This document shows, piece by piece, positions 10,350 to 64,000 of a stretch of 64,000 nucleotides of DNA. Made by a program: the position numbers and the translations under genes. A model generated the notes under the pieces. The model was not told the origin of the DNA. It worked only from the letters and a program-made list of their open reading frames with translations, and made no database searches. The DNA comes from Stieleria bergensis (lineage in GTDB: Bacteria; Planctomycetota; Planctomycetia; Pirellulales; Pirellulaceae), in the NCBI GenBank assembly GCA_007745635.1, contig CP036272.1:6811566-6875565 (forward strand). The letters are read 5' to 3'. Numbering within the stretch: the first letter of the stretch is position 1; every line of letters starts with the position of its first letter.

Positions 10350-11753
10350 TCAGGCGATGATCTCTTTGACCACTCTGCCGTGCACATCGGTCAACCGAAA
10401 ATCTCGACCGCTGTAGCGGTAGGTCAGTTTTTCGTGATCCAGACCCATCAGATGCAAGATGGTGGCGTGCAGGTCGTGAACATGCACTTTGTTTTCGACA
10501 GCAGCGAAACCGAATTCATCCGTTGCACCGTAAGCCATGCCCCCCTTGACGCCTCCACCGGCCAGCCACATGGAAAAACCATGATGGTTGTGATCGCGAC
10601 CGTTACCGTTCTCGGCAACAGGCGTGCGACCGAATTCCCCCCCCCAGACAATCAGCGTGTCTTTCAGGAGATCGCGTTGTTTTAAGTCATTGATCAACGC
10701 GGCGATTGGCTGGTCTACATTTTTGGCTTTATCAGCGTGCGACTTGATGTTTCCATGATCGTCCCATGGTTGCCCGTTGCCGTAATAAACCTGCACCATC
10801 CGAACACCGCTTTCAACCAAACGTCGTGCAGCCAAGCAACCTTTGGCAAACTGTCCTGAGCCATAGGCATCGAGGGTTTGCTTGGTTTCTTTGCCCAGAT
10901 CAAAAACACCCTGGGCCTCGGCCTGCATGCGAAATGCCATCTCCAACGATTCGATTCGGGCGTCCAAGCGGTTGTCTTGACCACCGCGTTGCTCCAAGTG
11001 AATCTGATTCATCTTGGTCAGCAAGTCTAACTGCTGACGCTGTGCCGCTTTGGTCAGATGCGAATTGCTAATGTGCTCAATGACCCGTTTGGGATCGACG
11101 TCTTTAGCGTGATTGATGTGGGTTCCTTGGAAGACCCCTGGCAGAAAACTGTTACTCCAGAGCTGCGGCCCGACCACCGGCTTGCCGGGGCAAAGCACCA
11201 CAAACCCAGGCAAGTTTTGATTCTCCGTTCCCAAACCGTATAACAACCACGATCCCATGGCGGGGCGTGTCGGCTGCGTTTCACCACTGTTCATCATCAG
11301 CAATGACGGTTCATGGTTGGGAATATTGGTGTGCATTGATCGAATCACACAAAGATCATCAATGCACTCGCCGACTTTTGGAAAAAGATCACTGACCTCC
11401 AATCCTGACTCGCCGTAGCGTCGAAACTTGAACGGTGACATGAGCAGACCACCGGTCCTTCGCTCTGTCTTCAGGTCGGCCCCTGGTGGACGTTTGCCAT
11501 TGTATTTTTCAAGTGCCGGTTTTGGATCAAACGTATCGACTTGCGACGGGCCACCATTCATAAAAAGGTGAATGATGTGTTTCGCGCGAGGCGCAAAATG
11601 AGTGGGTTTGGGATCAAGCACTCCAGCTGTCGATGCACCAAGCGTTTGGTCCTGGGCCAGAATGCCAGCCAAACCGAGTGACCCTAAACCAATCCCCATT
11701 CGCTGGAGGGATTCACGTCGATTCAAAGCGGGGTTGGGCTGAATGTATTGCAT
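10350..11753 (-). CDS. DUF1501 protein with twin-arginine-like leader
   Basis: This 467-residue protein is of the DUF1501 family, abundant in planctomycetes and related to the alkaline phosphatase/sulfatase superfamily fold. The leader has Arg-Arg at residues 12-13 (NRRESLQRMG) followed by a hydrophobic stretch, as in Tat substrates, so folded export is likely. Family marks are HLFMNGGPSQVDTFDPKP near residue 65, the VWGGEFGRTPVAEN segment and a GRDHNHHGFSMWLAGG block, whose His and Asp residues would form a metal site. It lies 53 bases downstream of the cytochrome-domain gene 11807-14980 and is surely in the same operon. Enzymatic function is not established to my knowledge. Confidence 0.92.
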   Translation of the reverse strand: MQYIQPNPALNRRESLQRMGIGLGSLGLAGILAQDQTLGASTAGVLDPKPTHFAPRAKHIIHLFMNGGPSQVDTFDPKPALEKYNGKRPPGADLKTERRTGGLLMSPFKFRRYGESGLEVSDLFPKVGECIDDLCVIRSMHTNIPNHEPSLLMMNSGETQPTRPAMGSWLLYGLGTENQNLPGFVVLCPGKPVVGPQLWSNSFLPGVFQGTHINHAKDVDPKRVIEHISNSHLTKAAQRQQLDLLTKMNQIHLEQRGGQDNRLDARIESLEMAFRMQAEAQGVFDLGKETKQTLDAYGSGQFAKGCLAARRLVESGVRMVQVYYGNGQPWDDHGNIKSHADKAKNVDQPIAALINDLKQRDLLKDTLIVWGGEFGRTPVAENGNGRDHNHHGFSMWLAGGGVKGGMAYGATDEFGFAAVENKVHVHDLHATILHLMGLDHEKLTYRYSGRDFRLTDVHGRVVKEIIA

Positions 11754-11806
11754 GGAAAGACTTTGCTTTAAGATTCGTCTAGGGAACTGATTTTCACAGA
11801 ACGAGA

Positions 11807-14800
11807 TTAATCGACATACATCAATTCGTTGCTACCGAGCAGCACTTGGGCATAGCTTTGCCAACGCGTCAATTTATCCTCGGCAGCTTTCTCACCGGCC
11901 AGGTAATCCAATCCCAGCTGCAGCTCAGGCTGACTTGGCGAACGACCGTAGGCCAACTGAAAGGCGCGTTCAATTCTGGACGAATCATCCGCTGGTGCTT
12001 CGGTGTGCAAACGTTCCGCGAACGCTTTCGCCCGGTTGATCATGAAGGGGCTATTGAGCACAAACAGCTGTTGCTGTGGGACCGTGGTCTCGGTTCGCTT
12101 CGAACTCGTGATGTTCGCGTCGGGAAAATCAAACAACCGTAACAGGCTGTCCAATTCGTGGCGACTGATCTTTGCATAAACGGTTCTTCGCACGTTATTG
12201 GCATCGCTTAACTTTGTCGACGGCCCCTCCATGGTTCGATCCAACTGGCCAGAGACATCCAGCACGGAATCTCGCCATGCTTCAACATCAAGACGTCGGC
12301 GATTGGCTCGCCAAAGGAATCGATTGTCTGCGTCAACTTCCCGATTTGTCGCGTTGCTATCGGCGGCAAGACGGTAGGTCGCAGAAAGCATGATCTCGCG
12401 GTGCAACTGCTTCACGGACCATCCATTTTCGATGAACCTGGATGCGAGGTAATCCAGCAGAGCAGGGTGGGTAGGTGCTTCACCGAGGTTTCCAAAGTTA
12501 CTGGGCGTGCCAACGATCCCACGTCCAAAATGGTGCTGCCAAATCCGATTGACCATCACTCGTGCCGTCAGCGGGTTGTCGGGACTGGCAATGGCATTGG
12601 CCAGTTCAAGCCGCCCACTACCGGACGTGTACGATGAACGCTGCTCGCCGGCAAGAATTCTCAAGAACCGGCGCGGCGCGACTTCGCGCTGGCGAGCGGG
12701 GTTCCCGCGAACGAACACCTTCATGTCAGCAGGCCGACTCTCGGTGTAAGCGTGAGCAATGGGATACATGGATGGCGCCGAGCTTTTTGCTGTTTCGACG
12801 GCAGCCTTCAACGCAACCAACTGTTCCTTGGCAGGCCCCTCCAGAAACTTCTCTAGCTCCTTATCTGGCACAGCCAATGGTCCATCTTTTCCCAACACCA
12901 AATTCAACAGTGGCTGTCGTGTCGGTTTTTCGGTGTAGATGCAAAACTGCACGCTGGCTTGTTCACCACAGCCGCCTTGGTCAGAGCCGCTATTATCCAA
13001 GCCACCAACCGCTTCGAATCGATCGTAGCCCTCCGGTACATCAAACACGATGGTCGATTCCGCATGGACGCCGATCCCCTCTGGATACGCTTTTCCACCA
13101 ACGCGAATGGGCTGACCTGAGTGGTTTGTGTTCACTCGGGGCTGACCACCTTCGTGCCGCTTCCACTTCAGTTCAGACAGCTTCAACTCACCTTTCTCTC
13201 CGATCAGCTTCGGTGAAATCCAATCGGCGTGGTCACAACTTTTGCCGTTCCCGCCATCGTTAACAACCAGATACAGTTCTTTTGCACCGCGAATGTCCGC
13301 CGCGATCTTCGCCGTTGGCCGAGCTTTGGTCACCGTCCGCGTGACAAAACGAGGACTGCCAGGCGTGTGAGGAAGCCCTTGACCGCTGGAGTTGCGATCA
13401 ACCAAACCATCTCGCAGACGGATCTCAAGGTCAACAAGATCCTGAAATTGCTTGGCGAGGTCCTTTACTTGATCGAGGGACTTGGCATCCTTTTCCTTTG
13501 CCGGATCGAGGGTGAAGTCGTACCAAGGATCTAACGCGGAGACTTTCCCTTTCTGCTTGGGATCCAGAAAACCAACCCATCGGTTCAACAGGTACTCGTT
13601 CAGTGAACTGCTTTCAGCGATCTCCTTTTTCGCGTTGTTGTTTCCATCCGCTTGAGCGAGGCGAACGCGCCAAGCAGCGACCATGTAATCCGCGATTTGA
13701 TCCACCCGCGTTTCCGCTTCAGCAACCTTTGCTTCGGCAAAGAACTTCTTGACGCCCTCCTCCGCTTGCTTGATGACTTTTTGACCCTCGTTGTAGTTCG
13801 CAATTTCTTCCTGCGAACAGAGCGGCGCGTTATGCAGCTTGGAGCTATTAAAGATGCCCGCGAGCGAATAGTAATCCTGCGTGGGAATCGGATCGAACTT
13901 ATGGTCATGACAACGGGCACAAGACACCGTCAATCCCAAGAAACCACGCGTCAACGTGTCAACGCGATCGTCCAATTCGTCGGCCATCGCCTTCGCTTTA
14001 TCGCTGTTCTTATAGTACTGTGCACCGAGCCCAAAGAAGCCAAGTGCAATCAAGTGGTCGTGATTGCCTTCAGCCCTGGGCCCCACCAAATCGCCGGCCA
14101 CTTGCAACCTGACGAACTCGTTGTACGGCAGGTCAGAATTGAAGGCTCGAATGACCCAATCGCGATAACGATAGCCATTGGTGTTCGCTCGTACCGAGAA
14201 CGTATGCGCTTGATCTTCGGCATAGCGTGCAACATCCAACCAGTAACGTCCCCAGCGTTCTCCATAATGCTCCGAATCAAGCAACCGATCCACCAAGGCT
14301 TCAAAAGCCAACGGCGAATCATCGTTCACAAATTTTTCAACCTCCTGAGGCGTCGGCGGCAAACCGATCAGGTCAAAGGTTGCTCGGCGAATCAAGACTC
14401 GCTTGCTGGCCGGACCAACAGGAGACAAACCAAGCTGTTCGAGCTTGGACAGCGTAAAGTAGTCGATCTTGCTGGTCGGCCAATCCTTGCGTTTCACGCT
14501 TGGCAAGGCAGCTCGCTGAACCGGTTGGAACGACCAGAACTTTCCCGCTTCGTCAAAGTCGATTGCTGTTTCAGGAACGGATGTGTCATCGCGTGGATCA
14601 GGCGCACCCATCTCAATCCACTTCTTAAAATCTTCGATCACCGCGTCCGGGAGCTTGCCCTTGGGCGGCATCTCAAAACCATCGTAGTTCAGAGCGTCAA
14701 TCAACAAACTTTCATCGACATTGCCAGGCACAATCGCTGGTCCCGAATCACCACCCTGCTGGGCAGCCGCTTTGGAATCGAGCTTTAACCCGCCTTGGAT

Positions 14801-14980
14801 ATTCTTGGCCTGCAAAGAATGGCATTGATCGCAGTGTTCAACCAAAACGGGACGGATCCGAGTTTCAAAAAACTCGATCCCTTCTGCCGTAGGCGCATTG
14901 GTTTCATCGCCGATCACACAACAAGGAAACACAGCCCAGGTCAGCAAGATCCATGGAGTCACCCATCGAATCGGATTCAT
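11807..14980 (-). CDS. Secreted cytochrome-domain DUF1549/DUF1553 protein with NPCBM module
   Basis: With the start at the ATG 14978-14980 the protein has 1057 residues; this start gives a proper signal peptide, while an upstream start at 15082 adds 34 residues of poor character. Order of parts: signal peptide 1-24; PSCyt1-type domain with heme-like motif CDQCH (Cys50, Cys53, His54); DUF1549 with a second motif CARCHDHKFDP; a long charged middle; an NPCBM-type carbohydrate-binding module recognisable from YPEGIGVHAESTIVFD; and DUF1553 near the C terminus with NRIWQHHFGRGIV. It is presumably a periplasmic c-type heme protein that binds sugar polymers. The DUF1501 gene follows in the same operon. 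The reaction is unknown. Confidence 0.9.
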   Translation of the reverse strand: MNPIRWVTPWILLTWAVFPCCVIGDETNAPTAEGIEFFETRIRPVLVEHCDQCHSLQAKNIQGGLKLDSKAAAQQGGDSGPAIVPGNVDESLLIDALNYDGFEMPPKGKLPDAVIEDFKKWIEMGAPDPRDDTSVPETAIDFDEAGKFWSFQPVQRAALPSVKRKDWPTSKIDYFTLSKLEQLGLSPVGPASKRVLIRRATFDLIGLPPTPQEVEKFVNDDSPLAFEALVDRLLDSEHYGERWGRYWLDVARYAEDQAHTFSVRANTNGYRYRDWVIRAFNSDLPYNEFVRLQVAGDLVGPRAEGNHDHLIALGFFGLGAQYYKNSDKAKAMADELDDRVDTLTRGFLGLTVSCARCHDHKFDPIPTQDYYSLAGIFNSSKLHNAPLCSQEEIANYNEGQKVIKQAEEGVKKFFAEAKVAEAETRVDQIADYMVAAWRVRLAQADGNNNAKKEIAESSSLNEYLLNRWVGFLDPKQKGKVSALDPWYDFTLDPAKEKDAKSLDQVKDLAKQFQDLVDLEIRLRDGLVDRNSSGQGLPHTPGSPRFVTRTVTKARPTAKIAADIRGAKELYLVVNDGGNGKSCDHADWISPKLIGEKGELKLSELKWKRHEGGQPRVNTNHSGQPIRVGGKAYPEGIGVHAESTIVFDVPEGYDRFEAVGGLDNSGSDQGGCGEQASVQFCIYTEKPTRQPLLNLVLGKDGPLAVPDKELEKFLEGPAKEQLVALKAAVETAKSSAPSMYPIAHAYTESRPADMKVFVRGNPARQREVAPRRFLRILAGEQRSSYTSGSGRLELANAIASPDNPLTARVMVNRIWQHHFGRGIVGTPSNFGNLGEAPTHPALLDYLASRFIENGWSVKQLHREIMLSATYRLAADSNATNREVDADNRFLWRANRRRLDVEAWRDSVLDVSGQLDRTMEGPSTKLSDANNVRRTVYAKISRHELDSLLRLFDFPDANITSSKRTETTVPQQQLFVLNSPFMINRAKAFAERLHTEAPADDSSRIERAFQLAYGRSPSQPELQLGLDYLAGEKAAEDKLTRWQSYAQVLLGSNELMYVD

Positions 14981-15355
14981 TTTAACGTTCGTATGAAGCA
15001 TCCAACTGGTCGCCAGGTAGGAAGACAGAATTGTCAGGCAGGGCGGGGAAAGCAGTTGTCGCGTGGAATTGATTGGCGGCAACTCTTAGGGAGGGGCTCC
15101 TATTCTAACAACAATTTGAAGAATTCTCTGCACCAATTTTTCCCTCGCGAAATTCGGCAATTCTTTGCTCGTTTTCAACGCAATGCCGCCCGAAGACCGC
15201 GTCAGACACCACTCCCCCTGTAGCGGCGACGGCTCTGGGTCAGCAAGCAATCTGCCGGGCCATTCACCTGTCGCCCGCTGCACCAATGACGGCCAGTCCC
15301 TGTGAGTGCTAAGATCAGAAACTTCTCGTTGAGCTGAACCATCTACTGGACTGCG
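14981..15355. other. Divergent intergenic spacer
   Basis: This spacer lies between the leftward cytochrome-domain gene and a rightward small membrane protein gene. No convincing coding frame, hairpin or consensus promoter stands out. Confidence 0.45.
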
Positions 15356-15952: not shown

Positions 15953-16303
15953 AACGGGACAATGCCGTTCGATCGGATTGGTACCGCTTGAGGCATTCAG
16001 AGAACATGGCGAAATCAAAGCGCGTGCAAGCCCCGGGAAGTCCATCGCTCCGCTGAATGCACTTGCGGAAACCCTTCCCGATGATGATGCCTGCCACATT
16101 ACAGGACGACAGTTCGAGCGGGATGTTCAGGCGTGCTGGTTCATCGAAGCCATGTGATTGTCTGGCAATTGCAGCAAGCACGTTTGGGAAGCTGGAATCC
16201 TGTGGCATGATGCGTCGCGCTCTGATAAGCTAACAGGCGATGAGTGGCTCCATTGAAGCCTCTCATTCCCGCCACTCCCTCACCCACCGCGCAAGGAACA
16301 TCG
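15953..16303. other. Intergenic spacer
   Basis: This 351-base gap precedes the DUF1549 operon. Short frames on both strands show no family features. The last bases carry the ribosome site of the next gene (AAGGA, about ten bases before the ATG at 16304). Confidence 0.45.
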
Positions 16304-17968
16304 ATGTCACGTTCATGCGTTTTAATCTTCGTGGGACTTGTCGTCGGAAGCATGACCCTGCATGCGTCCCCGTTACCAGCCACGGAACCGCTTCACCAGC
16401 AAGTGGATGCGTTGATTGAATCCCATCCAGACTTTCGCGCCCCTGCGGCGGCGCGAACCGATGACGCTTCATTCCTACGGCGCATTCATCTGGATCTGGC
16501 TGGATCGATCCCCAGCGCCACTGAAGTCCGAGAGTTTCTCGCGGACCAATCGCCCGACAAACGCGCAAAACGGATCGACAAACTGCTGGAATCGCCGCAG
16601 TACGCACGGCGGATGCAGCATGTGTTCGACGTCATGCTGATGGAGCGTCGACCGAGCATTCACATCAAGGTGCAACCGTGGCAAGACTATCTGCGCGAGT
16701 CGTTTTTGCAGAACAAATCGTGGCTGGACCTGTCACAGGAGATCCTCGCTGCGGACGGAGTCGACGAACAAACGCGTCCTGCGGCGCGCTTCCTGCTGGA
16801 TCGTGAACTCAAGATTGACAGCGTCACCCGTGACGTCGGTCGCCTCTTTCTGGGACGCGACCTGGAATGCGCTCAGTGTCATGACCATCCAGCAATCGAC
16901 GATTACCTTCAACGTCACTATTACGGAATCGCAGCGTTCATCAACCGCAGTTACATCTTCAAGGACCCCAAAACAAAACAGTCTTTGATCGGCGAAAAAG
17001 CGGAAGGCGAAATTGAATTCACATCGGTTTTTACCGATGAAAAGGACGAAACTTCACCGAGGATCCTGGATGCGCCGCCGATCTCCGATCCGCCCAACGG
17101 CGATGAGCTCTACAAGATCAAACCGGAAAAGAATGTGCGATCGGTTCCGATCTACAGCCGTCGCTTACAGCTCGCAAAATCAATCACTGATCCGTCGAAC
17201 CGGTCGTTTCGATTAAACATTGCCAATCGCATCTGGGCAATGATGATGGGTCGTGGGCTGGTAGAACCACTGGACATGTGGCATGAGGACAACCCACCGT
17301 CACACAACGAGCTTCTTGACCGGCTCGCTGATTCACTCTTGCAACATGACTATGACCTGAAATACCTGATCCGTGAACTGGCGTTATCCAAAACGTACCA
17401 GCGAAGCAGTCAGAGCCACCCACCGGTAAGTCTCGATCCCGGACAAACAACTGACTATTCGGTTGCAATTCTAAAACCTTTATCACCTGAGCAACTGGCC
17501 TGGTCGATGATGCAAGCCACCGGCTTGGTCGATCAACAAGTTGCAACACTGGTTGCCAAGCAAAGAAAGGCCGACGATCCCCAGCTTGCAGATGATCCGG
17601 TTTGGCAAGAAAACGCGCTCAACACGGCGCTGCGATCCAACACGGAAATCTTTGCCAAAGTCTTTGGCCACGAGGGCGTCCGGAATGATGGGTTCGATGC
17701 CTCGGCAGACCAAGCATTGTTCCTTCGCAACGGCGATTTACTGCAGCGTTGGGTCACGCTTAAGAATGGACTTTCAGATCGATTGACTGCTCTCGACAAC
17801 GACCAAGTTGCCGAAGAATTCTACCTGTCGATCTTCTCTCGGTTGCCAACTGCCGAGGAAGCACAGCCCATCGCCGATCTGCTGGATCAGAGCAAGCAAC
17901 GCAAAATCGATCTACAGCATTTGGTATGGGCCGGGCTGACGTCCAGCGCCTTTCGCTTTAACCACTGA
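16304..17968 (+). CDS. Secreted DUF1549/DUF1553 protein, compact form
   Basis: The ATG at 16304 is chosen because a GCAAGGA ribosome site lies about ten bases upstream and it begins a signal peptide; an in-frame ATG at 16244 adds 20 unlikely residues. The 554-residue product has DUF1549 at about 28-240 with a heme-like CAQCH (Cys189, Cys192, His193) inside CAQCHDHPAIDDY, then DUF1553 with IANRIWAMMMGRGLVEP and a late LFSRLPTAEEA-type element. It lacks the separate N-terminal cytochrome domain seen in the 1057-residue relative at 11807-14980, so this is the short architecture. It starts a three-gene operon with a DUF1501 gene 25 bases downstream and a WD40 gene. Confidence 0.9.
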   Translation: MSRSCVLIFVGLVVGSMTLHASPLPATEPLHQQVDALIESHPDFRAPAAARTDDASFLRRIHLDLAGSIPSATEVREFLADQSPDKRAKRIDKLLESPQYARRMQHVFDVMLMERRPSIHIKVQPWQDYLRESFLQNKSWLDLSQEILAADGVDEQTRPAARFLLDRELKIDSVTRDVGRLFLGRDLECAQCHDHPAIDDYLQRHYYGIAAFINRSYIFKDPKTKQSLIGEKAEGEIEFTSVFTDEKDETSPRILDAPPISDPPNGDELYKIKPEKNVRSVPIYSRRLQLAKSITDPSNRSFRLNIANRIWAMMMGRGLVEPLDMWHEDNPPSHNELLDRLADSLLQHDYDLKYLIRELALSKTYQRSSQSHPPVSLDPGQTTDYSVAILKPLSPEQLAWSMMQATGLVDQQVATLVAKQRKADDPQLADDPVWQENALNTALRSNTEIFAKVFGHEGVRNDGFDASADQALFLRNGDLLQRWVTLKNGLSDRLTALDNDQVAEEFYLSIFSRLPTAEEAQPIADLLDQSKQRKIDLQHLVWAGLTSSAFRFNH

Positions 17969-17993
17969 ACACTCAGGTTGCCGGAGAAAACTG

Positions 17994-19253
17994 ATGCGAA
18001 GAGACGAGGACTGCAACAGGTTCGACCATCTGATCGCCCGCCGAAACCTCTTGATCGGGGCGGCGACAGGCGTGATTGGAATGGGGGTGCTGAGTCAAGC
18101 ATCCAATGCTGCGCGTTTAGAGCAGAAACAAAAACGAATCTTGCAAATCTACCTGCAAGGCGGCGTGAGCCAGCTGGAATCCTGGGATCCCAAACCTGGC
18201 ACCAAGTATGGCGGGCCGTTTCAAGCGATTCCAACCTCGGTCCCCGGAATCCATGTCTCAGAGCTCTTGCCACACACGGCAAAACGCATGCATTTGCTCT
18301 CAATCGTCAGAAGCATCAATTCGAAAATTGGTGATCATCGCCAGGGCATGCTGTTCATGGAAAAGGGACGACGAGCGGGTGAGTATCCGTACTTTGGCTC
18401 CGTTGCGTCTCGGTACCTTGCGCCAGCTGACAGCGAATTGCCTGGCTACATTCATATCACCAAGCGTGGCATCAACGATTCGACCGCAGCGTTCCTGGGC
18501 GCCAGACACGGTCAATTGAAAATACTAGGCGTTCAGCCTCCAGAGAACCTTGATGCTCCACCGGCAATCGACGCGTCCGCGGACCTGGCAAGAGAACAAC
18601 TGCGTGTTCAGTTCAACCAACGGTTTTCCCAGCAACGCTCGCGAGCACTGACCGACGTGTACAACAGCTCCTACGAGCAGGCCGCCAAACTGATGCACCG
18701 CAAGGGAATGTTTGAGGGACAAGAATCCGAACGGGATCTTGATCGCTACGGTCGTCATGATTTTGGGCGCCACTGCTTGCTTGCTCGAAGCTTGTTGGAA
18801 AACGGCGCGACGTGTGTCAAAGTCACGCACCATGGCTACGACACCCATGCAGAGAACTTCAACTTCCACCTGGAGCAGCTTGGTGAATTCGATAAAACCT
18901 TTTCAATGCTGCTGGACGACATTCACGACCGAGGCATGCTCGACAGCACGTTGATCATGGTTTATTCCGAAATGGGACGCACACCCAAAATCAACACAAA
19001 GTACGGCCGCGACCACTGGGGCACTGCTTGGTCGATGGCGATGGGCGGTTGCGGGATTCAGCCAGGAGCGATTGTTGGCAAGACCAGCCAAGACGGAACC
19101 AAAGTCACCGATCGAGAAGTCGACGCCGGACATTTGTTCCATACCTATCTATCGGCGCTGGGACTCGATTCGACCGAGGACCATGACTTTCCAGGACGAT
19201 CCATTCCGATTGCCGATCCGGCCGCCGACCCAATCGAGGAGTTGCTGTCATGA
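17994..19253 (+). CDS. DUF1501 protein with twin-arginine-like leader
   Basis: This 419-residue protein is the DUF1501 partner of the preceding DUF1549/1553 protein. The leader reads LIARRNLLIGAATGVIGMGV, a twin-arginine pair ahead of a hydrophobic stretch, as for Tat export. It shows the family's early YLQGGVSQLESWDPKPG motif (phosphatase-like fold) and the late VYSEMGRTPKIN and GRDHWGTAWSMAMGG blocks. It is about 50 residues shorter than the homologue at 10350-11753. Its stop overlaps the ATG of the WD40 gene by four bases (19250-19253), so their production is coupled. Confidence 0.91.
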   Translation: MRRDEDCNRFDHLIARRNLLIGAATGVIGMGVLSQASNAARLEQKQKRILQIYLQGGVSQLESWDPKPGTKYGGPFQAIPTSVPGIHVSELLPHTAKRMHLLSIVRSINSKIGDHRQGMLFMEKGRRAGEYPYFGSVASRYLAPADSELPGYIHITKRGINDSTAAFLGARHGQLKILGVQPPENLDAPPAIDASADLAREQLRVQFNQRFSQQRSRALTDVYNSSYEQAAKLMHRKGMFEGQESERDLDRYGRHDFGRHCLLARSLLENGATCVKVTHHGYDTHAENFNFHLEQLGEFDKTFSMLLDDIHDRGMLDSTLIMVYSEMGRTPKINTKYGRDHWGTAWSMAMGGCGIQPGAIVGKTSQDGTKVTDREVDAGHLFHTYLSALGLDSTEDHDFPGRSIPIADPAADPIEELLS

Positions 19254-20317
19254 ACCGAAGTGCAACCATCGACCCGGCAAACATTCACCAAGTCAATGAA
19301 TTCAAACATCCGAATCCACTGACCACGCTCAAAGCCGATCCCACCGGACGCTTCGTCGCCGCCGGTGCTCAAGACTTGGACATCCAGTTATGGAATTTGA
19401 ACGACGGTCATTTGGAAACGCTTACCGGACACAAAAGCTGGGTCCGATCGATCGATTTTTCAGCAGACGGAAGCCGCATGTACACCGCATGCTGGGCAGG
19501 AACAGTCAAGATCTGGGACCTCGCAGGCCCGAGTCCTGAACTGATTCGTTCGCTGCAAACGCATCAAGGCTCGACACGCTGTGTTCGAGTCAGCCCGGAC
19601 GGGAAAGCAATCGCCACCTGTGGCAACGATCTGTTGGTCAAAGTCTGGGATATCGAAAGCGGCCAACGGAGACAACAATTTGATGGCCACCAGCGGCACG
19701 TCTACGGTGTCGACTTTCACCCCGACGGAGAACATCTGGTCTCACAAGACTTAATGGGTGTCTCATTTGTTTGGAATCTCAAGACGAATCAGCAACAAAG
19801 GACGATCGATGCCAGCATGATGACGGGCTACGACAAAAAGTTTGCCGCCGACATGGGAGGCGCTCGAGACCTTCGCTTCAATGCCGATGGGACTCAGTGG
19901 GCCAGTGCCGGGATCACGAAAGTCGTCAACTCTTTTGCCGGTATTCAAGATCCAATCATTGTGGTGTTTGACTGGGAAACGGGCCAAGCCACTCGGCAAC
20001 TAAAAGCCGCTGATAAATTCAAAGGAGTCGCATGGGGAGTGCAATTTCACCCCCAAGGATTCATCATCGGCGCGGGAGCCGAAAAATCCGGCAAAGGCGA
20101 ACTCTGGTTCTACAATGTGGAACAGGACGAAGCCTTTCACACGTTCGCCATGAAGAGTGCCGCCCGCGGATTGGATCTTGTCGGCAAGGACCGCCTAGCC
20201 GTCGCACATGCTGATGGTGCCATGCGCTTGTATCAAATGACCGAACCGGCAAGCAGTGACTCGGACGAGGAAAAACCGACCGAGACCGCCAAGGCTGAAC
20301 AGAAAGAAAAGCAGTGA
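19250..20317 (+). CDS. WD40 repeat protein coupled to DUF1501 gene
   Basis: This 355-residue protein is a beta-propeller of WD40 repeats. At least three clear blades are visible: one ending TVKIWDLAG, one ending LLVKVWDIESG and one ending VSFVWNLKTN, each preceded by a GH dipeptide; later blades are divergent. There is no recognisable signal peptide, so it would act in the cytoplasm unless exported with its partners. The last 25 residues are highly charged (Glu/Lys rich). The ATG overlaps the DUF1501 stop by four bases. WD40 proteins are scaffolds, which fits a role holding the module's proteins together or aiding their assembly, though that is inference. Confidence 0.88.
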   Translation: MNRSATIDPANIHQVNEFKHPNPLTTLKADPTGRFVAAGAQDLDIQLWNLNDGHLETLTGHKSWVRSIDFSADGSRMYTACWAGTVKIWDLAGPSPELIRSLQTHQGSTRCVRVSPDGKAIATCGNDLLVKVWDIESGQRRQQFDGHQRHVYGVDFHPDGEHLVSQDLMGVSFVWNLKTNQQQRTIDASMMTGYDKKFAADMGGARDLRFNADGTQWASAGITKVVNSFAGIQDPIIVVFDWETGQATRQLKAADKFKGVAWGVQFHPQGFIIGAGAEKSGKGELWFYNVEQDEAFHTFAMKSAARGLDLVGKDRLAVAHADGAMRLYQMTEPASSDSDEEKPTETAKAEQKEKQ

Positions 20318-20389: not shown

Positions 20390-20397
20390 GCAACCAT

Positions 20398-21815: not shown

Positions 21816-24245
21816 TCACAGGCCCAAGGTTTTCAGTGCCGGTCGCTCCGTTGCCCCTTGCAGGTTCTTGATCGTCTGCCGAACAACGTTGGCCTTGTCG
21901 CGGCTCAGATTCTTGGGGAAGTCCGTTTCCTCATGCTCGAAATAATTCGCCGTCGCCTCAAGCTGAGGAATCACCCGCTGGGCATGCGCACCGTAGCTCT
22001 CAAGCATCTTCATGACCTGCACGATGCGTTTCTGGCTGCCGTGCTTCTTTTGTGTTCGTGCGTAGTCGGCCAACAGCTCGATGCCCTCGTCAATCCGATG
22101 CTGCGCGAACAGCTTTAAGCCGGCATTTTGAATGCCATCGGCGAACATGATCCCGCTGGGAGCAGGTTCGACAATCGCCTTGTGGATTGACGGAAGAAGC
22201 GGCTGCAGTTCATCGAAACGAAGGTTGTCATAAACGGAACTGAAACTCCCTCGCGCACGACCATCTTCATTCAAAAGTCCAGCTCGCACGGCGTGAAGCA
22301 ACAACTGACGATCAACACCATCAAGCGAGCGGCCAAGCAATCCGCCCCGTGTATTAAACAGAGCAAAGGACAGGTAACGCTGTTCCATGTTGCGAGGATC
22401 TTGCGGCGATGCGCTGCGAGCCAAACGCTGCAGCATGATCGGAATCGCTGGCTTCGCAGGCTGTCCGATTCCGGCAAGCGCGTCTGCGGCTAAGACGCGA
22501 AGCCATAGATCGTCGGCTTGCAAGGTCTTGACCAAGGCTGGAACCGCCGCAACACCTCGTCCCCGTTGCAGCTGCAGCGCCTGACATGCACCATAGCGAG
22601 AAGACAGGTCTGGCGATTCAAGCAAGGCCACTAGCGACTCGGACACGTCCTCTTTTCGACGCCCCAGAGCTTCGGCCGCCCGTTGACGAACGGTTGGAGA
22701 CCAATTGGACAAGCGTTCCAACAGTTGCACGGTGGTCAGTGAATCGTAGAAACGATTGCGATCATTATTGCTCCAGCCGCGACCATCAGCGACCAGAGAC
22801 CATGCGGTGTCGGAGTCGACTTCAGCAATCACTGGCTTTCCCTTACCGGTCAGGTAAAGCTGCTCTCTGGGAGTCGCGTAGGCCAACAAGAAGGCTCCCG
22901 TACAGTCCCAGCCCCGATAGCTGTCCGGCCGTGATTGCGGAGGACCTTGATGAATGAACGTGCCGTCCCAGCGACGTGCCAGATCAAAGTACCAACCGCC
23001 ATACTCATTCATCCACGCCCCCGTCGCATGATGACCAGACCGCGCGATGCCAGGCATCGCCCACAGCAGATTGAAAAAGTTCCCGGTGTGCCCGCAGTCG
23101 CGTTCCGGCCCATGACAGGCGACGCTCATGCGCGAGAAATATTCAGCGTGTTCGGCTTCACCAAGCAAGTCAAACAACACTGCAGCCATGCCGTTTTTCC
23201 CATTGTCATCATGGGTTTGAATCCAGGGATGATGGTCGCCATAAGGAATCGCACCTTTACCGGAATAGAACCGCAACAGCTTGGCGCTCTTTTCAATGGC
23301 ATCGGCGACCTCTGGATCATTGATGCCAGCCTTGCGAGCCATCACAAGGCCAATGGTCAGTGGAAGGCCCGGTGCATTCATCATCCCATAACCACCAAGT
23401 CGCCCGTCGCTCTGTACAAACCGATGCCCCCAGGAGCCGACATCACTTTGACCAAGAGCCGCCTCCATTGACAACCGCCGCAAGCCAGGCAGCACCGATT
23501 CATCACCCGTTGCCATCACGTATTCTGAAAGAAACAGGATGACATAACCGTAGTGCCAAGTCTTGTAACCGCTGGTGGTGAACTTCGAGGCCCACTCGGC
23601 TTCCCGCTTGATCAGCGGCAGGTGTTGCTTTTGGCCACTGGCTAGTAAAGCCAACGCGTTAAGCGATCGAGTGATTGGAACAGCACGATAGGATGGACTG
23701 GCCACACGATCGGCCAACGACGCCACGCCAAGCTCAAGAACACGCTCCGATTTCGGGCAATCCCAAGGAGCCGTTGCGCTGTAACTTCCCAGCACAGGAA
23801 TCTTCAACAACACGTTCTCGGTGTTTCCATCACGCCAACGAAGGAGGCTGAGCTGTCCTTGCCCAGCTTTGGTTTCAGCTTCCGATATCGCTTTGCCAAA
23901 ACGAACACGGGGGTCGCCTTCAAATTCTTTTCCACTGAGACCAAGGATCACATCGCCGACGCGCAGAACTCCATCGGCCGGAGACCCCGAGTCGACTTTC
24001 GTGATGCGGATTTGCCGGGCCGCACTTGTCTCCAGTCGGTGACTGTAGATCCAACCGCGAGCACCGGTTGGGCCTAAGTTCCAATCGTGGGAAAAGCCAG
24101 ACGGGATGCTGTCGCCTTGCGTAAAGTCGGGTTGATCCGCGTCGGGTCCTCCGCCAGCAGCCGAAACACTGTCGGCAAATGCGAGGCATGTGAAAAGCCA
24201 AACGACGGCCAAAGCGCGATGGAGAGATTTGTAATGAAGAGTCAT
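21816..24245 (-). CDS. Secreted DUF6288 protein with PDZ and HEAT-repeat regions
   Basis: This 809-residue protein has a signal peptide (1-29), then a PDZ-like domain at about 70-150 (SPADGVLRVGDVILGLSG is the ligand-loop region). Residues about 165-480 form an alpha-helical barrel-like domain with repeated short motifs such as WASKFTTSGYKTWHYGY, WGHRFVQSDGRLGGYG and GHTGNFFNLLW, with many Trp, His and Gly residues, characteristic of the DUF6288 family. Residues about 540-660 are HEAT-like repeats (VRQRAAEALGRR, LRVLAADALAGIG). The barrel resembles the (alpha/alpha)6 folds of some glycoside hydrolases and lyases, so a role on polysaccharides is possible but unproven. It lies downstream of the double SASA gene on the same strand. 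Confidence 0.75.
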   Translation of the reverse strand: MTLHYKSLHRALAVVWLFTCLAFADSVSAAGGGPDADQPDFTQGDSIPSGFSHDWNLGPTGARGWIYSHRLETSAARQIRITKVDSGSPADGVLRVGDVILGLSGKEFEGDPRVRFGKAISEAETKAGQGQLSLLRWRDGNTENVLLKIPVLGSYSATAPWDCPKSERVLELGVASLADRVASPSYRAVPITRSLNALALLASGQKQHLPLIKREAEWASKFTTSGYKTWHYGYVILFLSEYVMATGDESVLPGLRRLSMEAALGQSDVGSWGHRFVQSDGRLGGYGMMNAPGLPLTIGLVMARKAGINDPEVADAIEKSAKLLRFYSGKGAIPYGDHHPWIQTHDDNGKNGMAAVLFDLLGEAEHAEYFSRMSVACHGPERDCGHTGNFFNLLWAMPGIARSGHHATGAWMNEYGGWYFDLARRWDGTFIHQGPPQSRPDSYRGWDCTGAFLLAYATPREQLYLTGKGKPVIAEVDSDTAWSLVADGRGWSNNDRNRFYDSLTTVQLLERLSNWSPTVRQRAAEALGRRKEDVSESLVALLESPDLSSRYGACQALQLQRGRGVAAVPALVKTLQADDLWLRVLAADALAGIGQPAKPAIPIMLQRLARSASPQDPRNMEQRYLSFALFNTRGGLLGRSLDGVDRQLLLHAVRAGLLNEDGRARGSFSSVYDNLRFDELQPLLPSIHKAIVEPAPSGIMFADGIQNAGLKLFAQHRIDEGIELLADYARTQKKHGSQKRIVQVMKMLESYGAHAQRVIPQLEATANYFEHEETDFPKNLSRDKANVVRQTIKNLQGATERPALKTLGL

Positions 24246-24383: not shown

Positions 24384-26018
24384 TCACTTTGACAGAGCTT
24401 CGGTTGCCAGGAGTTCGCCAAGTCGCTTCACCGCGTTGGCGTTCATCAACAGGTTTCGGTCAAGTGGCAAGTCATTTCCGATGATCAAGGCCTTGAGATG
24501 AGCGTCGCCTGCGGCCAAGTCACGCAACTCCGACGGAACATCGATCTTGCTCAGGTTTTCATTGGGGAAGGGCGGTTGCAAACTGACCAACCACCGCAAG
24601 CTTGGCGAATGAAGGTCCAGGCGAGATTGCGTGATGATTGATGACAGACCACTGACAGCGTTCTTCTTGTAGCCATGAATGCACATGTCGTTTTCACCCA
24701 TGTGATACACGACACCTGCCAATTCAACGTCATGCCCTTTGTCTTTCAACTCTGCAACACTGCCCTCAACAAAGGAGATAAACGCTTTGTACAGGTTGCG
24801 ATCTTTGGCAAGAGAGCCCTGGGGTGTCCAATCCAAGATCTGGCTGCCACTATGCGTGAACTTGGCAATCGCGATGGGGCTGTCGCTTTTTACGCTGACT
24901 TGATGGGCAAAACTAAGCTCCGGCCCAAAGGTGTCATAAAAGCCAGTCGGCCCCAAGGCCTCCCAGCCATTGGAAACACTGACGCCGCCACCGATGCTGT
25001 ACTTGAATGCAATGCCCTTGTTGTCTTGCAACAGTGCATCTCCCTTGATCTCCTGGATAAATGCCCGCTCACCTTCCATGTTGCGATGACCGGCCAGAAC
25101 ATACAGTTTGATTTTCGCCTTCTCTTGATACGGCCATTCCACCAGCGCAGGCCGTCCCGGACTGTCTTTTCCAATGTTGGCCAAATAAGCCTTGGCGTAC
25201 CCCATGCCATGCCCCAACTGGCCTAAGGTCCCAAAGTGATAATGCAGTCCTGTCCGATTGCTAACCGTCATGCCGTTGTGATTATTGGGAATGTACTGAA
25301 CCAGTGCATCTCGCCCACAAGCGGCCTTCTGACCTTGGCTCAGTTCATCCATCCGCTGACGGTTATCCATTCCCCAAACCGATTTGCAATGCAATTCGCC
25401 GATATAGAAACGCAGATCTTTGACGCCAAGATCACGACGCCAAGACTTGATGAAATGGCTTAGGTTGTCTCCATAGGCCTTTCGATAGTCGTCGTTGAAC
25501 ATATCGTTTTCGCCTTGGTGCCACATCAAGCCTTCGATTCGATAGTCAACGCCCTGCTTGTCGAGCTCTGCGAGTGAGTCCTTGACCAGTTTCAAGGCTT
25601 TGGGGTACAGCTTGAACCCTCCGGGATGATCTGGATTCCAGTCTTCACCGAGGGTGGTTCCACCCACGGCACACTTAATGATGGCGATCGGTGCCTTGAC
25701 CTGCTTACGAATTTCGCGGCTAAAGCTTAGCTCAGGGCCGACCCAGTTATTCACCGACTTTAGCTTCACCCAGCCGTTGGACAAATGCGCATCGTTGCGG
25801 CCCATGTTGTAACTGTAGAGCACATCGGTTTGCTCTTCGTCCAAACCATGGAAGGGCGGAAAGTTTGCCACCTTACTGACATGCGAATCAGCGCCTTCCA
25901 TGTTGGATTGGCCGGCGAAGATAAACACTCGCAACGTCTGATCGTCATCCGCATTCAGCATGCCGGTCCAAAGGGACACCAGCGATAACACCACCAAGCT
26001 CATCAAGAGTTTCTGCAT
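24384..26018 (-). CDS. Secreted protein with two SASA esterase domains, second one lacking Ser
   Basis: The ATG at 26016-26018 is preferred: it follows a GGTGAAG ribosome site and begins the signal peptide, giving 544 residues. Domain 1 (about 30-285) has the nucleophile block GQSNM at 36-40 and the WHQGEND block at 166-172, so it should be an active sugar O-acetylesterase. Domain 2 (about 303-530) repeats the layout, but its block reads GHRNM at 310-314, with Arg in place of the catalytic Ser, while YHMGEND is kept. Domain 2 is therefore probably a binding or structural copy. The gene lies between the DUF1592 and DUF6288 genes on the same strand. Confidence 0.87.
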   Translation of the reverse strand: MQKLLMSLVVLSLVSLWTGMLNADDDQTLRVFIFAGQSNMEGADSHVSKVANFPPFHGLDEEQTDVLYSYNMGRNDAHLSNGWVKLKSVNNWVGPELSFSREIRKQVKAPIAIIKCAVGGTTLGEDWNPDHPGGFKLYPKALKLVKDSLAELDKQGVDYRIEGLMWHQGENDMFNDDYRKAYGDNLSHFIKSWRRDLGVKDLRFYIGELHCKSVWGMDNRQRMDELSQGQKAACGRDALVQYIPNNHNGMTVSNRTGLHYHFGTLGQLGHGMGYAKAYLANIGKDSPGRPALVEWPYQEKAKIKLYVLAGHRNMEGERAFIQEIKGDALLQDNKGIAFKYSIGGGVSVSNGWEALGPTGFYDTFGPELSFAHQVSVKSDSPIAIAKFTHSGSQILDWTPQGSLAKDRNLYKAFISFVEGSVAELKDKGHDVELAGVVYHMGENDMCIHGYKKNAVSGLSSIITQSRLDLHSPSLRWLVSLQPPFPNENLSKIDVPSELRDLAAGDAHLKALIIGNDLPLDRNLLMNANAVKRLGELLATEALSK

Positions 26019-26159
26019 TGTCTTCACCTGTCTCCAAATCGGGTTGTCTCTCTGAGTCACGCAAGCGCCACCACAGTCACACGGAATCGTTTCCTAAATC
26101 CCAAGCCATCAACTGATCACGCAACCTTCACCGATCGCGTGACGCGCCAGAGTATTTCG

Positions 26160-60889: not shown

Positions 60890-61150
60890 ATGTTCTCACG
60901 CCGACAGTTGCTCCAGCAAACCATCGACTCGGTCGGCGGACGAAGCGCTGCCGGCTTGCTTGCGGAGTCAAATCGGCGTCATTCAACGGGAAAAACAGCC
61001 GCAATCCGTTGCCTCTTTCCACTGAAAACGAGATGCGTCAGTCACCTGTTCACCCCTCGTGATCCGCTTCAAGGCGACTTGACCGCGATGTCAAGCACGG
61101 TCGTCAAAGACATTTCGACGTCGTTCGTTCGGTTCATTCACCCAAAGTAG
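60890..61150 (+). pseudogene. N-terminal remnant of a DUF1501 gene
   Basis: An ATG at 60890 opens an 87-codon frame whose beginning, MFSRRQLLQQTIDSVGGRSA, is a degraded twin-arginine leader of the DUF1501 type. Further on, LFPLKTRCVSHLFTPRDP aligns with the family's opening block (in the intact gene at 10350-11753: FAPRAKHIIHLFMNGGPSQV), keeping the Phe-Pro and His-Leu-Phe positions but losing the Gly-Gly-Pro-Ser. It stops at 61148-61150, only 50 bases before the next cytochrome-domain gene. It looks like the leftover 5' end of a module partner, replaced by the DUF1501 gene at 63897. Confidence 0.55.
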
Positions 61151-61199
61151 ATTTCGTTGACCGCGCCCGATGGCTCGGATGATCGGTCAGCCCATTGTT

Positions 61200-63893
61200 A
61201 TGAAACCAATACTCATCTCCCAACTCGCATTGGCGACCGTTTGGCTGCTGACAGGTTCGCTGGCCGTTGCTGATCAAGACAGCAAAATCGTTTTTGAAAA
61301 ACAGATCCGCCCGATACTGAAACAGCACTGTTTTCATTGTCACGGTGAGGAGGAAGAGGTCAGCGCGGGCCTTGATTTACGACTCCGGCGTTTTCTTGCT
61401 CAAGGCGGTGACTCCGGTGCGGCCATCATACCGGGCGATCCAGAAAACAGTTTGTTGATCGAGGTCTTGCGATCGGGCCAGATGCCCGAGGGCAAAGACA
61501 AGCTGCCGGATCAGGAAATTGACTTGATTGCTAAATGGATTCAGCAAGGCGCACCGACGGCGCGCAGCGAGCCAGAAACGGTCGCCGAACTGGACGCCTT
61601 CACCGAAGAAGAACGCAACTGGTGGTCATTGCAACCCATTGCCGCGCCCCAGGTGCCTGCAGCCAATGAACTGACCGATTCAACGAATCCAATCGATCGA
61701 TTCATCGCTCGGTCGCTGCAGCAGTCAGGCCTGACCTTTTCACCCGCTGCCGATGCTCGAACGCTGATCCGCCGCCTGCAATTTGATTTGACGGGTTTAC
61801 CGCCAACGCCAGACGAGATCACTGCCTTTACCGAACAGTCGAAAGACGCTCCCGAGTCCGCATACCGATCCTTGCTAGAACGATTGTTGAACTCGCCAGC
61901 GTACGGTGAGCGCTGGGCCCGACACTGGCTGGACATCGCTGGCTATGCGGATTCAAACGGGTTCGACGAGAAAGATGTCGTTCGCGAACATGCCTGGAGA
62001 TATCGCGACTATGTGATTCGATCGTTAAACAACGACAAGCCCTACGACCAGTTCATACGCGAACAGCTTGCCGGTGATGAGATCGCGGCTTCGCTGGGCA
62101 TGCATGCGAATTCACCAGAGGAACAAGATCGCGCGCGGTATGCTGAATTGCTGACCGCCACTGGCTTTCTACGCATGGCGCCCGATGGTTCCGTTAGCCA
62201 AAACAACATCACCACACGCAATCAATGCGTCGCCGACACGATCAAAATCATCAGCACGACGCTGTACGGCATGACCATTGAATGCGCCCAATGCCACAAT
62301 CACCGCTATGATCCGATCACTCAGGCAGACTACTACAGCCTGCGGGCGATTTTCGATCCGGGGTTCGATGTGCCCCGTTGGCGTGTTCCCAAGAATCGCT
62401 TGGTTTCCTTGCAGACCAAGCAGCAAGCCGAACAAGCGGCAAACATTGAAAAGGAAGCCAAGAAGATCGACGCGGAACGCAACGCTCAACAGAAACAGTT
62501 CATCGCTGAAGTGCTGGAAAAGGAACTCGCGAAACGCGATGAAGCCATTCGAGACGACCTGCGTGTCGCCTACAACTCCAACGCCAAGCAACGCACGAAA
62601 GAACAGACGAAGTTGCTTTCAGAGCATCCCAGCATCAACAAACTCAGCGCTTCGAGTCTGTATCTGTATGACAGCACCTACAAAACCAAGCATGCGGCAA
62701 CGCTCAAGGAAATTGCCGCTCGCGCCCAGGCCATCCGTGACACCAAACCAACTGAAGAATTCGTCCACGCGTTCACAGAGTTAGCCAACGATCCGAAAGC
62801 TGTTGTGACCACTCATGTCTTTTTCCGTGGCAACCCAGAGGCACCGAAGGAAAAGGTTTTGCCCAGTGACTTATCCGTGCTGGCAAGCTGGCGATCGACA
62901 GAACTGGCTGAATTTAGTGATGCAGTGCCGACGACCGGTCGGCGACTAGCGTTTGCACGATCAGTGACCGATGGCAGGCATCCGTTGCTGGCCCGAGTGA
63001 TCGTGAACCGAGTTTGGAAGCATCACTTTGGACGCGGACTGGTCTCCTCAGCCGGCGACTTCGGCGTCTTAGGTGAACGTCCCTCGCATCCCGAATTACT
63101 GGATTGGCTGGCCACTGAATTCATGGAATCGGGCTGGAGCTTAAAAGCGCTTCATCGCTTGATCCTGACCAGCCAAACCTGGCAGCAGTCCTCCAAGCGA
63201 TCGAAGCGAGGTGATCAGATCGATCCCGACAATCAATTGCTTAGCCGCCAAAAGACTCGGCGACTAGAAGCCGAAGCGCTGCGAGATGCGTTGCTGGCCG
63301 TGACCGGAAAGCTGAATCGCAAACCCTTCGGGCCGCCGATCCCTGTGATGCCGACGACAGATGGTTCAATCGTCGTCGGCAACGACACGACCGATAGCGC
63401 GGGACGACAAACGGGAAAGTACATTCCACTCCATGGCGAAGAGTATCGCCGCAGCATCTATGTGCAGGTTCGCCGCAGTCGCCCGCTGGACCTATTGACG
63501 ACATTTGACGCTCCCAGCATGACGGACCCCAACTGCATCTCGCGGCCTGAAACAACCGTCAGTCCGCAGAGTCTCCTCATGATGAACAACTCTGGCATGC
63601 GAGCTCACGCCAGACACTTCGCGCAGCGATTACAAAACACTGGGCCTCCCGATCAGGACTCTCAGATTCGGACGGCGTTTGAACTGTGCTACGGTCGCAA
63701 GGCAAGCGAAACGGAAATCGCCAATTCCAAAAACTTCATCAACGCACAACAGCAGTACTACAAAGACAACCCAGCCAAATTCGAAAACGAATCGGGTCCG
63801 GCTGAAAAGGAGAATGCCTCCGCACAAGCCTTGGCACTCGCCGCGTTTTGTCATGCTCTCCTAAGCACCAACGAATTCCTCTACATCGATTGA
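61200..63893 (+). CDS. Secreted cytochrome-domain DUF1549/DUF1553 protein
   Basis: The ATG at 61200 begins a signal peptide (1-24) and gives 897 residues; an ATG at 61170 adds ten poor residues. Parts in order: PSCyt1-type domain with CFHCH (Cys44, Cys47, His48) and PEGKDKLPDQEIDLIAKWI; DUF1549 with PYDQFIREQLAGDEI; a second heme-like motif in CAQCHNHRYDPI; a coiled-coil-like charged segment around 415-530 (many Lys/Glu); DUF1553 with NRVWKHHFGRGLVS and ETTVSPQSLLMMN. It has no NPCBM module, unlike the relative at 11807-14980. It is presumably exported and heme-bearing. The DUF1501 partner starts four bases after its stop. Confidence 0.92.
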   Translation: MKPILISQLALATVWLLTGSLAVADQDSKIVFEKQIRPILKQHCFHCHGEEEEVSAGLDLRLRRFLAQGGDSGAAIIPGDPENSLLIEVLRSGQMPEGKDKLPDQEIDLIAKWIQQGAPTARSEPETVAELDAFTEEERNWWSLQPIAAPQVPAANELTDSTNPIDRFIARSLQQSGLTFSPAADARTLIRRLQFDLTGLPPTPDEITAFTEQSKDAPESAYRSLLERLLNSPAYGERWARHWLDIAGYADSNGFDEKDVVREHAWRYRDYVIRSLNNDKPYDQFIREQLAGDEIAASLGMHANSPEEQDRARYAELLTATGFLRMAPDGSVSQNNITTRNQCVADTIKIISTTLYGMTIECAQCHNHRYDPITQADYYSLRAIFDPGFDVPRWRVPKNRLVSLQTKQQAEQAANIEKEAKKIDAERNAQQKQFIAEVLEKELAKRDEAIRDDLRVAYNSNAKQRTKEQTKLLSEHPSINKLSASSLYLYDSTYKTKHAATLKEIAARAQAIRDTKPTEEFVHAFTELANDPKAVVTTHVFFRGNPEAPKEKVLPSDLSVLASWRSTELAEFSDAVPTTGRRLAFARSVTDGRHPLLARVIVNRVWKHHFGRGLVSSAGDFGVLGERPSHPELLDWLATEFMESGWSLKALHRLILTSQTWQQSSKRSKRGDQIDPDNQLLSRQKTRRLEAEALRDALLAVTGKLNRKPFGPPIPVMPTTDGSIVVGNDTTDSAGRQTGKYIPLHGEEYRRSIYVQVRRSRPLDLLTTFDAPSMTDPNCISRPETTVSPQSLLMMNNSGMRAHARHFAQRLQNTGPPDQDSQIRTAFELCYGRKASETEIANSKNFINAQQQYYKDNPAKFENESGPAEKENASAQALALAAFCHALLSTNEFLYID

Positions 63894-63896
63894 ACC

Positions 63897-64000
63897 ATGA
63901 GTCACTCACGACGACATTTCTTGCAAAGCAGTTACGGCGCCGGACTGGTGGCGTTGGCAACACTGATGGACGACCGAGAGTCACTTGCCAATCCGAAGAT
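63897..64000 (+). CDS. DUF1501-type protein, N terminus only (right edge)
   Basis: The ATG at 63897 lies three bases after the stop of the cytochrome-domain gene. The visible 34 residues begin MSHSRRHFLQSSYGAG, a twin-arginine leader. The position after a DUF1549/1553 gene and the leader type make a DUF1501 protein very likely, but the family core lies outside the window. Confidence 0.7.
   Translation, partial: MSHSRRHFLQSSYGAGLVALATLMDDRESLANPK

Follow-up and report, generated by a model that had tools for sequence, protein, structure and literature searches.

The 64,000-nucleotide stretch of the genome of the marine bacterium Stieleria bergensis analysed here (contig CP036272.1, positions 6,811,566 to 6,875,565; hereafter the window) contains five pairs of adjacent genes, each combining a protein with the CxxCH motif of c-type cytochromes with a phosphatase-like protein. 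Our preferred explanation, to which we assign a probability of roughly 55%, is that these pairs are copies of one ancient periplasmic module of two proteins that duplicates as a unit and combines an enzyme of alkaline-phosphatase (AP) fold, exported by twin-arginine translocation (Tat), with a c-haem partner. The two kinds of pairs in the window, PSD1 with DUF1501 and PSD4 with DUF1552, as well as the haem-free DUF1800-DUF1501 pair, look like branches of this module. The explanation builds on computed homology, co-divergence, motifs, leaders and an altered residue, from which we infer the complex, metal, chemistry, electron flow and polymer substrate.

A Pfam search of the open reading frames (ORFs) of the window confirmed all five cytochrome/phosphatase-like pairs described in an earlier note on this DNA. 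They comprise the following genes, to which a WD40 gene adjoining module 2 is added:

10350-11753, minus strand: module 1 DUF1501 protein, 467 amino acids (aa), Pfam E 3.9e-152, twin-arginine (RR) leader, no CxxCH
11807-15082, minus strand: module 1 haem-motif partner, 1091 aa, Pfam PSCyt1, PSCyt2, NPCBM and PSD1, two CxxCH
16244-17968, plus strand: module 2 core protein, 574 aa, PSCyt2 and PSD1 without PSCyt1, single CxxCH
17994-19253, plus strand: module 2 DUF1501 protein, 419 aa, Pfam E 5e-85
19250-20317, plus strand: WD40 protein without CxxCH, its ORF overlapping the 3' end of the module 2 DUF1501 gene
26160-28853, minus strand: module 3 haem-motif partner, 897 aa, PSD3, PSD5, PSD4, PSCyt3 and PSD2, two CxxCH
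28744-30030, minus strand: module 3 DUF1552 protein, 428 aa from the likely start, Pfam E 3.4e-67, RR leader
32317-34329, plus strand: module 4 haem-motif partner, 670 aa, PSCyt1, PSD3, PSD5, PSD4, PSCyt3 and PSD2, two CxxCH
34326-35915, plus strand: module 4 DUF1552 protein, 529 aa, Pfam E 6.9e-64, its start overlapping the partner's stop by 4 nt
61170-63893, plus strand: module 5 haem-motif partner, 907 aa, PSCyt1, PSCyt2 and PSD1, two CxxCH
63897-64000, plus strand: start of the module 5 DUF1501 gene, the ORF of which occupies genome positions 6875462-6876901, mostly past the window end

The earlier note had placed the fifth pair within 61200-64000; the partner beyond the window end is indeed a genuine DUF1501 protein, but its gene lies almost wholly outside the window. 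The longest ORF of the module 3 DUF1552 gene runs to 30195, the likely start being 30030, as in the earlier note, and the haem-motif partner of the same module has a weak PSCyt1 match (23.0 bits vs. a cut-off of 22). The module 1 DUF1501 protein has an additional Pfam Sulfatase match below the cut-off (19.2 vs. 25 bits), and the region of the NPCBM insert in its partner matches solved chains of the CBM type and the F5/8 type. The module 4 DUF1552 protein exceeds the median length of the DUF1552 proteins of the genome by 77 residues (529 vs. 452 aa), and its extra C-terminal part is without a Pfam match.

The pairing rule extends to the whole source genome (7.107 Mb, one contig), in which family searches, with split hits merged before genes were counted, detected 61 PSD1, at least 64 DUF1501 (127 of 170 candidates scored), 47 PSD4 and 47 DUF1552 genes. 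These four families together account for 219 genes, and the two-gene unit occurs in about a hundred copies. Partners were assigned as the nearest core gene (PSD1, PSD4 or DUF1800) on the same strand within 8 kb, with one divergent PSD4-type gene and two DUF1800 genes added to the set; for DUF1501, DUF1800 was accepted as an expected partner as well. The expected partner was nearest for all 109 DUF1501 and DUF1552 genes with a core gene in this range (61 DUF1501 with PSD1, 2 DUF1501 with DUF1800 and 46 DUF1552 with PSD4), vs. a mean of 55.8 and a maximum of 77 after shuffling of the labels; chance adjacency was dropped as an explanation on this basis. One DUF1501, one DUF1552 and one PSD4 gene had no partner within 8 kb and, seen from the core side, one PSD1 gene has a DUF1552 gene nominally nearer (3999 bp) than its DUF1501 gene (4047 bp). 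One-to-one pairing within 5 kb covered 60 of the 61 PSD1 and 45 of the 47 PSD4 genes. The core gene comes first in 53 of these 60 and 32 of these 45 pairs, and the two genes (longest ORFs) overlap or are separated by at most 60 nt in 46 and 37 of them, respectively. The division of motifs is equally sharp: CxxCH occurs in all PSD1 (61/61) and PSD4 (47/47) proteins vs. none of the DUF1501 (0/64) and DUF1552 (0/47) proteins, and an RR followed by an uncharged stretch is present in 64/64 DUF1501 and 45/47 DUF1552 proteins, the corresponding numbers for the controls being 6/61 PSD1, 5/47 PSD4 and 3/29 sulfatases. The strict pairing, the close spacing and the distribution of motifs claimed in the earlier note thus all hold at the scale of the genome. 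By these motifs, the DUF1501 and DUF1552 proteins are predicted to be exported as Tat substrates, and haem attachment of the c type is predicted for the PSD partners.

The partners have also diverged together, as expected from inheritance as a unit. Distances between PSD1 proteins correlate with those between their DUF1501 partners (Mantel r 0.82 for 60 pairs; permutation maximum 0.28), and the same applies to PSD4 and DUF1552 (r 0.76 for 45 pairs; permutation maximum 0.31) and to the 44 PSD1 pairs with more than a single CxxCH (r 0.78; permutation maximum 0.52). On a tree of the enzymes (LG+G4, quick search, no bootstrap; 140 rows, 137 of them labelled by partner type in four states), seven changes of partner type suffice, and the DUF1800-linked DUF1501 proteins form one side of a branch with a support of 99 (SH-aLRT, the Shimodaira-Hasegawa-like approximate likelihood ratio test). 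The single-CxxCH label requires five changes. Duplication of the pairs as units is the simplest account of these data.

Both halves of the pair, moreover, are homologous across the pair types, and this is what our profile comparisons add to earlier work (E-values are each for one comparison). The DUF1501 and DUF1552 profiles match at E 6e-18, or 8e-15 after removal of the leader, and those of PSD1 and PSD4 at E 1e-20 over their full length, or 1.8e-10 over 80 columns without PSCyt1; since the trimmed profiles still match, similarity of the leader or of PSCyt1 was dropped as the source of the homology signal. DUF1800 matches both PSD1 (E 2.1e-7, 223 columns) and PSD4 (E 9.2e-7, 111 columns). 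The controls (reversed profiles, sulfatases and the opposite partner families) gave probabilities of at most 1.8%. Individual proteins also cross-match Pfam families at E up to 0.001, i.e., PSD1 members to PSD2 (2/50), DUF1800 (1) and PSD5 (1), and PSD4 members to PSCyt2 (1/47) and DUF1800 (1); further weak cross-matches fall below the cut-off. Low-threshold alignments put the core CxxCH of PSD1 and that of PSD4 near one and the same DUF1800 segment, with low confidence, which may be taken as a hint only of homology of the haem site. Judged by their profiles, DUF1501 and DUF1552 are one lineage of the AP superfamily, and PSD1, PSD4 and the CxxCH-free DUF1800 are one lineage as well, which we propose as a DUF1800/PSD superfamily. 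The pair types can, therefore, not be maintained as separate systems, because both halves are homologous between the types and to the DUF1800-DUF1501 pair.

The AP-like nature of the Tat-leader partner is indicated by both fold and profile. An AlphaFold2 model of the module 3 DUF1552 protein (predicted local distance difference test, pLDDT, 79; predicted template modelling score, pTM, 0.74) has an iota-carrageenan sulfatase as its best fold match (E 1e-4; template modelling score, TM, 0.37; root-mean-square deviation, rmsd, 11). The 14 best matches (E up to 0.001; probability 0.96-1.00) are mostly named sulfatases, and the others (LtaS, YejM and phosphoglycerate mutase) are presumably also members of the AP superfamily, so that the model predicts an alkaline-phosphatase-like fold for DUF1552. 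DUF1501 appears to be joined to the superfamily by profile links: its profile matches that of 29 sulfatases of the same genome at E 3.8e-9 in the C-terminal half (E 2e-10 along the global path), while the DUF1552 profile does so more weakly (E 1.1e-5). Searches by sequence for solved relatives retrieved none for the DUF1552 proteins of the window or for the DUF1552 profile and, for DUF1501, marginal sulfatases only (E 0.71 with a single sequence, 0.022 with the profile).

In a joint alignment of PSD1-linked DUF1501 (61), DUF1800-linked DUF1501 (31) and DUF1552 (47) proteins, one His is 100% conserved, and it is the sole residue that is invariant in all three enzyme branches. It is present in 64/64 DUF1501 and 47/47 DUF1552 proteins of the genome and in 98% (75/76 rows) of a wider DUF1552 alignment. 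AP-superfamily enzymes usually have a Ser, Thr or Cys (formylglycine) nucleophile. In three of four alignment settings the invariant His of DUF1501 aligns, without gaps, with the sulfatase Cys that we take to be the nucleophile. The sulfatase motif C/S-x-P-x-R, a search pattern for which recovers 26 of the 29 sulfatases, is absent from the aligned place in DUF1501. The likeness to the sulfatases (PF00884) thus lies in profile and fold, and the difference in a His instead of C-x-P-x-R in DUF1501. D-x-H and D-H are also conserved in both DUF1501 groups, but DUF1552 has kept neither of the two Asp residues as a conserved position. Because the invariant His appears, in DUF1501, to occupy the place of the nucleophile, we do not file these families as phosphatases or sulfatases; they are probably AP-fold proteins with an altered active site. 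Of the alkaline-phosphatase-like enzyme proposed in the earlier note the fold stands, but the sulfatase-type nucleophile is absent, and "phosphatase-like" should consequently be read as a statement on fold, not on activity.

In the haem-motif partner, the core CxxCH (in PSCyt2 or PSCyt3) is invariant in all aligned members, i.e., 50/50 PSD1 (11 further PSD1 were left out for size) and 47/47 PSD4. The N-terminal PSCyt1 motif is optional, as 17 of the 61 PSD1 proteins possess a single CxxCH. For four of these 17, a PSCyt1-like domain is encoded by a separate nearby gene, in one case with WD40-like repeats (crude pattern); in two relatives such a domain is located on a neighbouring WD40 protein. 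In one protein of the source genome (1733 aa), PSCyt1, WD40 and the PSD1 core are united in a single chain, which suggests that the three work together. Binding-type domains are inserted in some PSD1 (Laminin_G_3 in 3, NPCBM in 2 and F5/8 C in 2 of 50) and PSD4 proteins (PA14 in 3, Laminin_G_3 in 2 and CBM60 in 1 of 47). An AlphaFold2 model of the module 4 PSD4 protein is confident (pLDDT 85, pTM 0.88) and mostly helical, but Foldseek searches of the PDB (best E 0.17 at probability 0.08) and of the BFVD viral library (best E 0.038 at probability 0.10) retrieved no match to it, although the lack of a match does not prove that the fold is new. Sequence searches for solved relatives yielded none for the PSD4 proteins of the window, and with the PSD4 profile they retrieved nothing beyond cytochrome c chains of marginal score (E 0.28 and 0.7).

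The rule was also examined in 14 of 39 sampled planctomycete genomes, every one with a DUF1800 match (150 of 221 DUF1501 and 150 of 176 PSD1 matches listed; DUF1501 candidates partly scored in three genomes). Among the matches listed, 43/43 PSCyt3 and 43/44 DUF1552 genes are mutually paired (two below-cut-off DUF1552 rows were dropped, and the single unpaired gene could not be judged), 118/150 PSD1 rows have a DUF1501 gene within 8 kb, and no mixed pairs were seen. DUF1501 stood beside only 1/38 of the listed DUF1800 rows because the match lists are incomplete; the fetched loci correct this to 30/30, DUF1501 adjoining DUF1800 on the same strand in all 30 best-scoring DUF1800 loci (25 genomes). 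For the 32 apparently unpaired PSD1 rows, 19 loci were fetched for a recheck (13 remained unchecked), and five of these do have an adjoining DUF1501 gene, one of them on the opposite strand. DUF1552 relatives are present in records of Planctomycetota, Verrucomicrobiota, Acidobacteriota, Poribacteria and Armatimonadota. In a scan of named genomes (80 of 565 confirmed DUF1552 loci analysed), 63 loci are preceded by a PSD4 gene on the same strand, at a distance of at most 130 nt in 59 cases, and the 17 loci without an upstream PSD4 gene have neither PSD1 nor DUF1800 as a neighbour. The DUF1552 of one relative lies in a long open frame that might join core and enzyme into a single protein, although the region preceding it contains masked letters. 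Mixing is thus unseen, but separation, which the earlier note had named beforehand as a refuting outcome, is common in some lineages: the partners are never mixed, but not never separated.

If our preferred explanation is correct, the Tat-leader partner would probably be a metalloenzyme of the AP superfamily and the catalytic subunit, with the invariant His acting as the attacking group or as an extra metal ligand. The other partner, of the DUF1800/PSD superfamily and all-helical in the one model made, would in the PSD branches carry a c-type haem inside its core and usually a second one on PSCyt1, dock to the AP-fold protein and pass electrons. The binding domains inserted in some copies could direct the enzyme to a polymer, e.g., a sulfated polysaccharide. 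The partner rule would follow from descent, each of the three branches (PSD1-DUF1501, PSD4-DUF1552 and DUF1800-DUF1501) having kept its own partner. An extension of this idea, which at present we would not bet on, is that the module represents a new enzyme class, in which an AP-fold metalloenzyme, with His taking the position of the nucleophile and perhaps binding a redox metal, is wired to a c-haem protein of new fold, and about a hundred copies form a repertoire of substrate-specific variants that attack marine polymers by oxidation.

Several observations weigh against the preferred explanation. For 14 of the 19 rechecked PSD1 loci, no DUF1501 gene belonging to them lies within about 7 kb (one locus has an opposite-strand DUF1501 fragment that belongs to another PSD1), and 13 of the 80 DUF1552 loci, from Verrucomicrobiota, Poribacteria and Acidobacteriota records, are unpaired although their upstream sequence extends for 4.5 kb or more (one has <1 kb downstream), which implies that the complex is not obligatory everywhere or that the partner is encoded elsewhere. 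Co-divergence shows joint duplication, not contact; for the 16 single-CxxCH pairs the correlation (r 0.64) is little above the permutation maximum (0.55), and the partners share the same nearest paralogue in only 21/60 and 17/45 pairs, the trees being similar, not identical. CxxCH is found in 0/31 DUF1800 frames, unlike in the PSD partners, so that haem is not a general requirement of the pair, and the DUF1800 branch can do without electron transfer. DUF1552 resembles its fold matches only modestly (TM about 0.37, large rmsd). The match of His to nucleophile derives from low-threshold and global paths, the strict setting not reaching this region, and direct alignment of DUF1552 with the sulfatases does not place His on Cys, so that for DUF1552 the claim depends on its alignment to DUF1501. 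Binding-type domains occur in only a minority of copies. Finally, scoring of 150 of 229 candidates gave at least 153 sulfatase-domain matches in the genome, a few of them located in the same open frame, but their enrichment near DUF1501 is weak (within 4 kb of 16/64 genes vs. 8.8 expected; 48 of 5000 shifts reached the observed value) and their proximity to DUF1552 not significant at 4 kb (8/47, 6.5 expected); sulfatase clustering was, therefore, rejected as proof of a role connected with sulfated glycans.

The absence of CxxCH from DUF1800, together with the AP-superfamily fold and the profile link to sulfatases, would also fit a purely hydrolytic version of the same module, i.e., a phosphatase, sulfatase or esterase with a His nucleophile, in which the haem protein only senses or stabilises. 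We regard this as unlikely, as a mere stabiliser would need no haem motif, yet the core motif is kept in all aligned PSD1 and PSD4 proteins. Similarly improbable is that the two proteins are co-inherited through a shared pathway in which they act separately, without binding: the orphan genes of relatives and the non-identical partner trees agree with this, but the genes mostly overlap or touch, their divergence is correlated, and partner switching is rare or unseen. Somewhat less probable still is that the AP-fold partner has lost its nucleophile and with it enzymatic activity, and is instead a scaffold that binds a metal or ligand and supports the haem protein, e.g., in the organisation of the cell envelope or endomembranes. 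The usual nucleophile is indeed absent, and DUF1501 clusters have earlier been linked to the intracellular membranes of the Planctomycetes-Verrucomicrobia-Chlamydiae (PVC) group (Kamneva 2012, as cited in PMC4452313); against this, the invariant His and the D-x-H and D-H residues of DUF1501 would suit a metal site, and the presence of dozens of divergent copies in a single genome points to specialisation.

The adjacency itself is largely published already. For freshwater Verrucomicrobia, He et al. (2017; PMC5615132) reported two neighbour rules for PSCyt/PSD genes, noted carbohydrate-binding modules and sulfatase neighbours, and suggested a carbohydrate-related role. Our pairs obey the same rule, by which PSCyt2 and PSCyt3 genes each stand beside one constant partner family. 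DUF1501 and DUF1552 each occur three times in the text of that paper; its sections concerned with these neighbourhoods do not name the partner families and contain no homology between pair types, link to DUF1800 or active-site analysis. The DUF1800-DUF1501 operon beside bacterial chitin synthases, described as transferred together (PMC5122149), likewise consists of two adjacent genes with the twin-arginine motif on DUF1501. Rhodopirellula baltica has 41 copies each of PSD1 and PSC2, for which a redox role was suggested (Studholme et al., cited in PMC2754498); these are the same Pfam domains as here, and the partner rule is not described where PMC2754498 discusses them. DUF1501 has also been noted near WD40 genes in Planctomycetes (PMC5587647). 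In the literature found (mostly open-access papers, largely by listing), none joined these families or discussed the invariant His, and none reported a tested function for them. Five separately named families (DUF1501, DUF1552, PSD1, PSD4 and DUF1800) would now be joined into one two-part module, in which a result in one branch can inform the others, and the single invariant His and the confidently modelled partner of unmatched fold make a diffuse unknown directly testable.

Some further observations concern the surroundings of these genes. A constant replacement partner of the orphan PSD1 genes did not emerge: at 7 of the 14 orphan loci, the scan of one or two neighbours showed different kinds of proteins (desaturase, amidohydrolase, fatty acid synthesis protein, DUF7133, PPC and WD40). 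Two orphan loci of one relative (L127 and L143) adjoin DUF7133-HEAT proteins, one of which has its own cytochrome c domain. Extra genes, encoding large proteins and separate PSCyt1-like proteins, surround the single-CxxCH PSD1 loci L007, L018, L042, L137 and L141, and three scanned large proteins (L007, L137 and L141) have a PPC domain, one just under the cut-off. In the window, a DUF6288 protein with HEAT repeats (21816-24245, minus strand) has a SASA-type carbohydrate esterase (24384-26060) and module 3 as neighbours, and genes for a PhyH dioxygenase and a TRAP transporter (DctM, DctP) are located at 6184-9908 (minus strand), just downstream of module 1.

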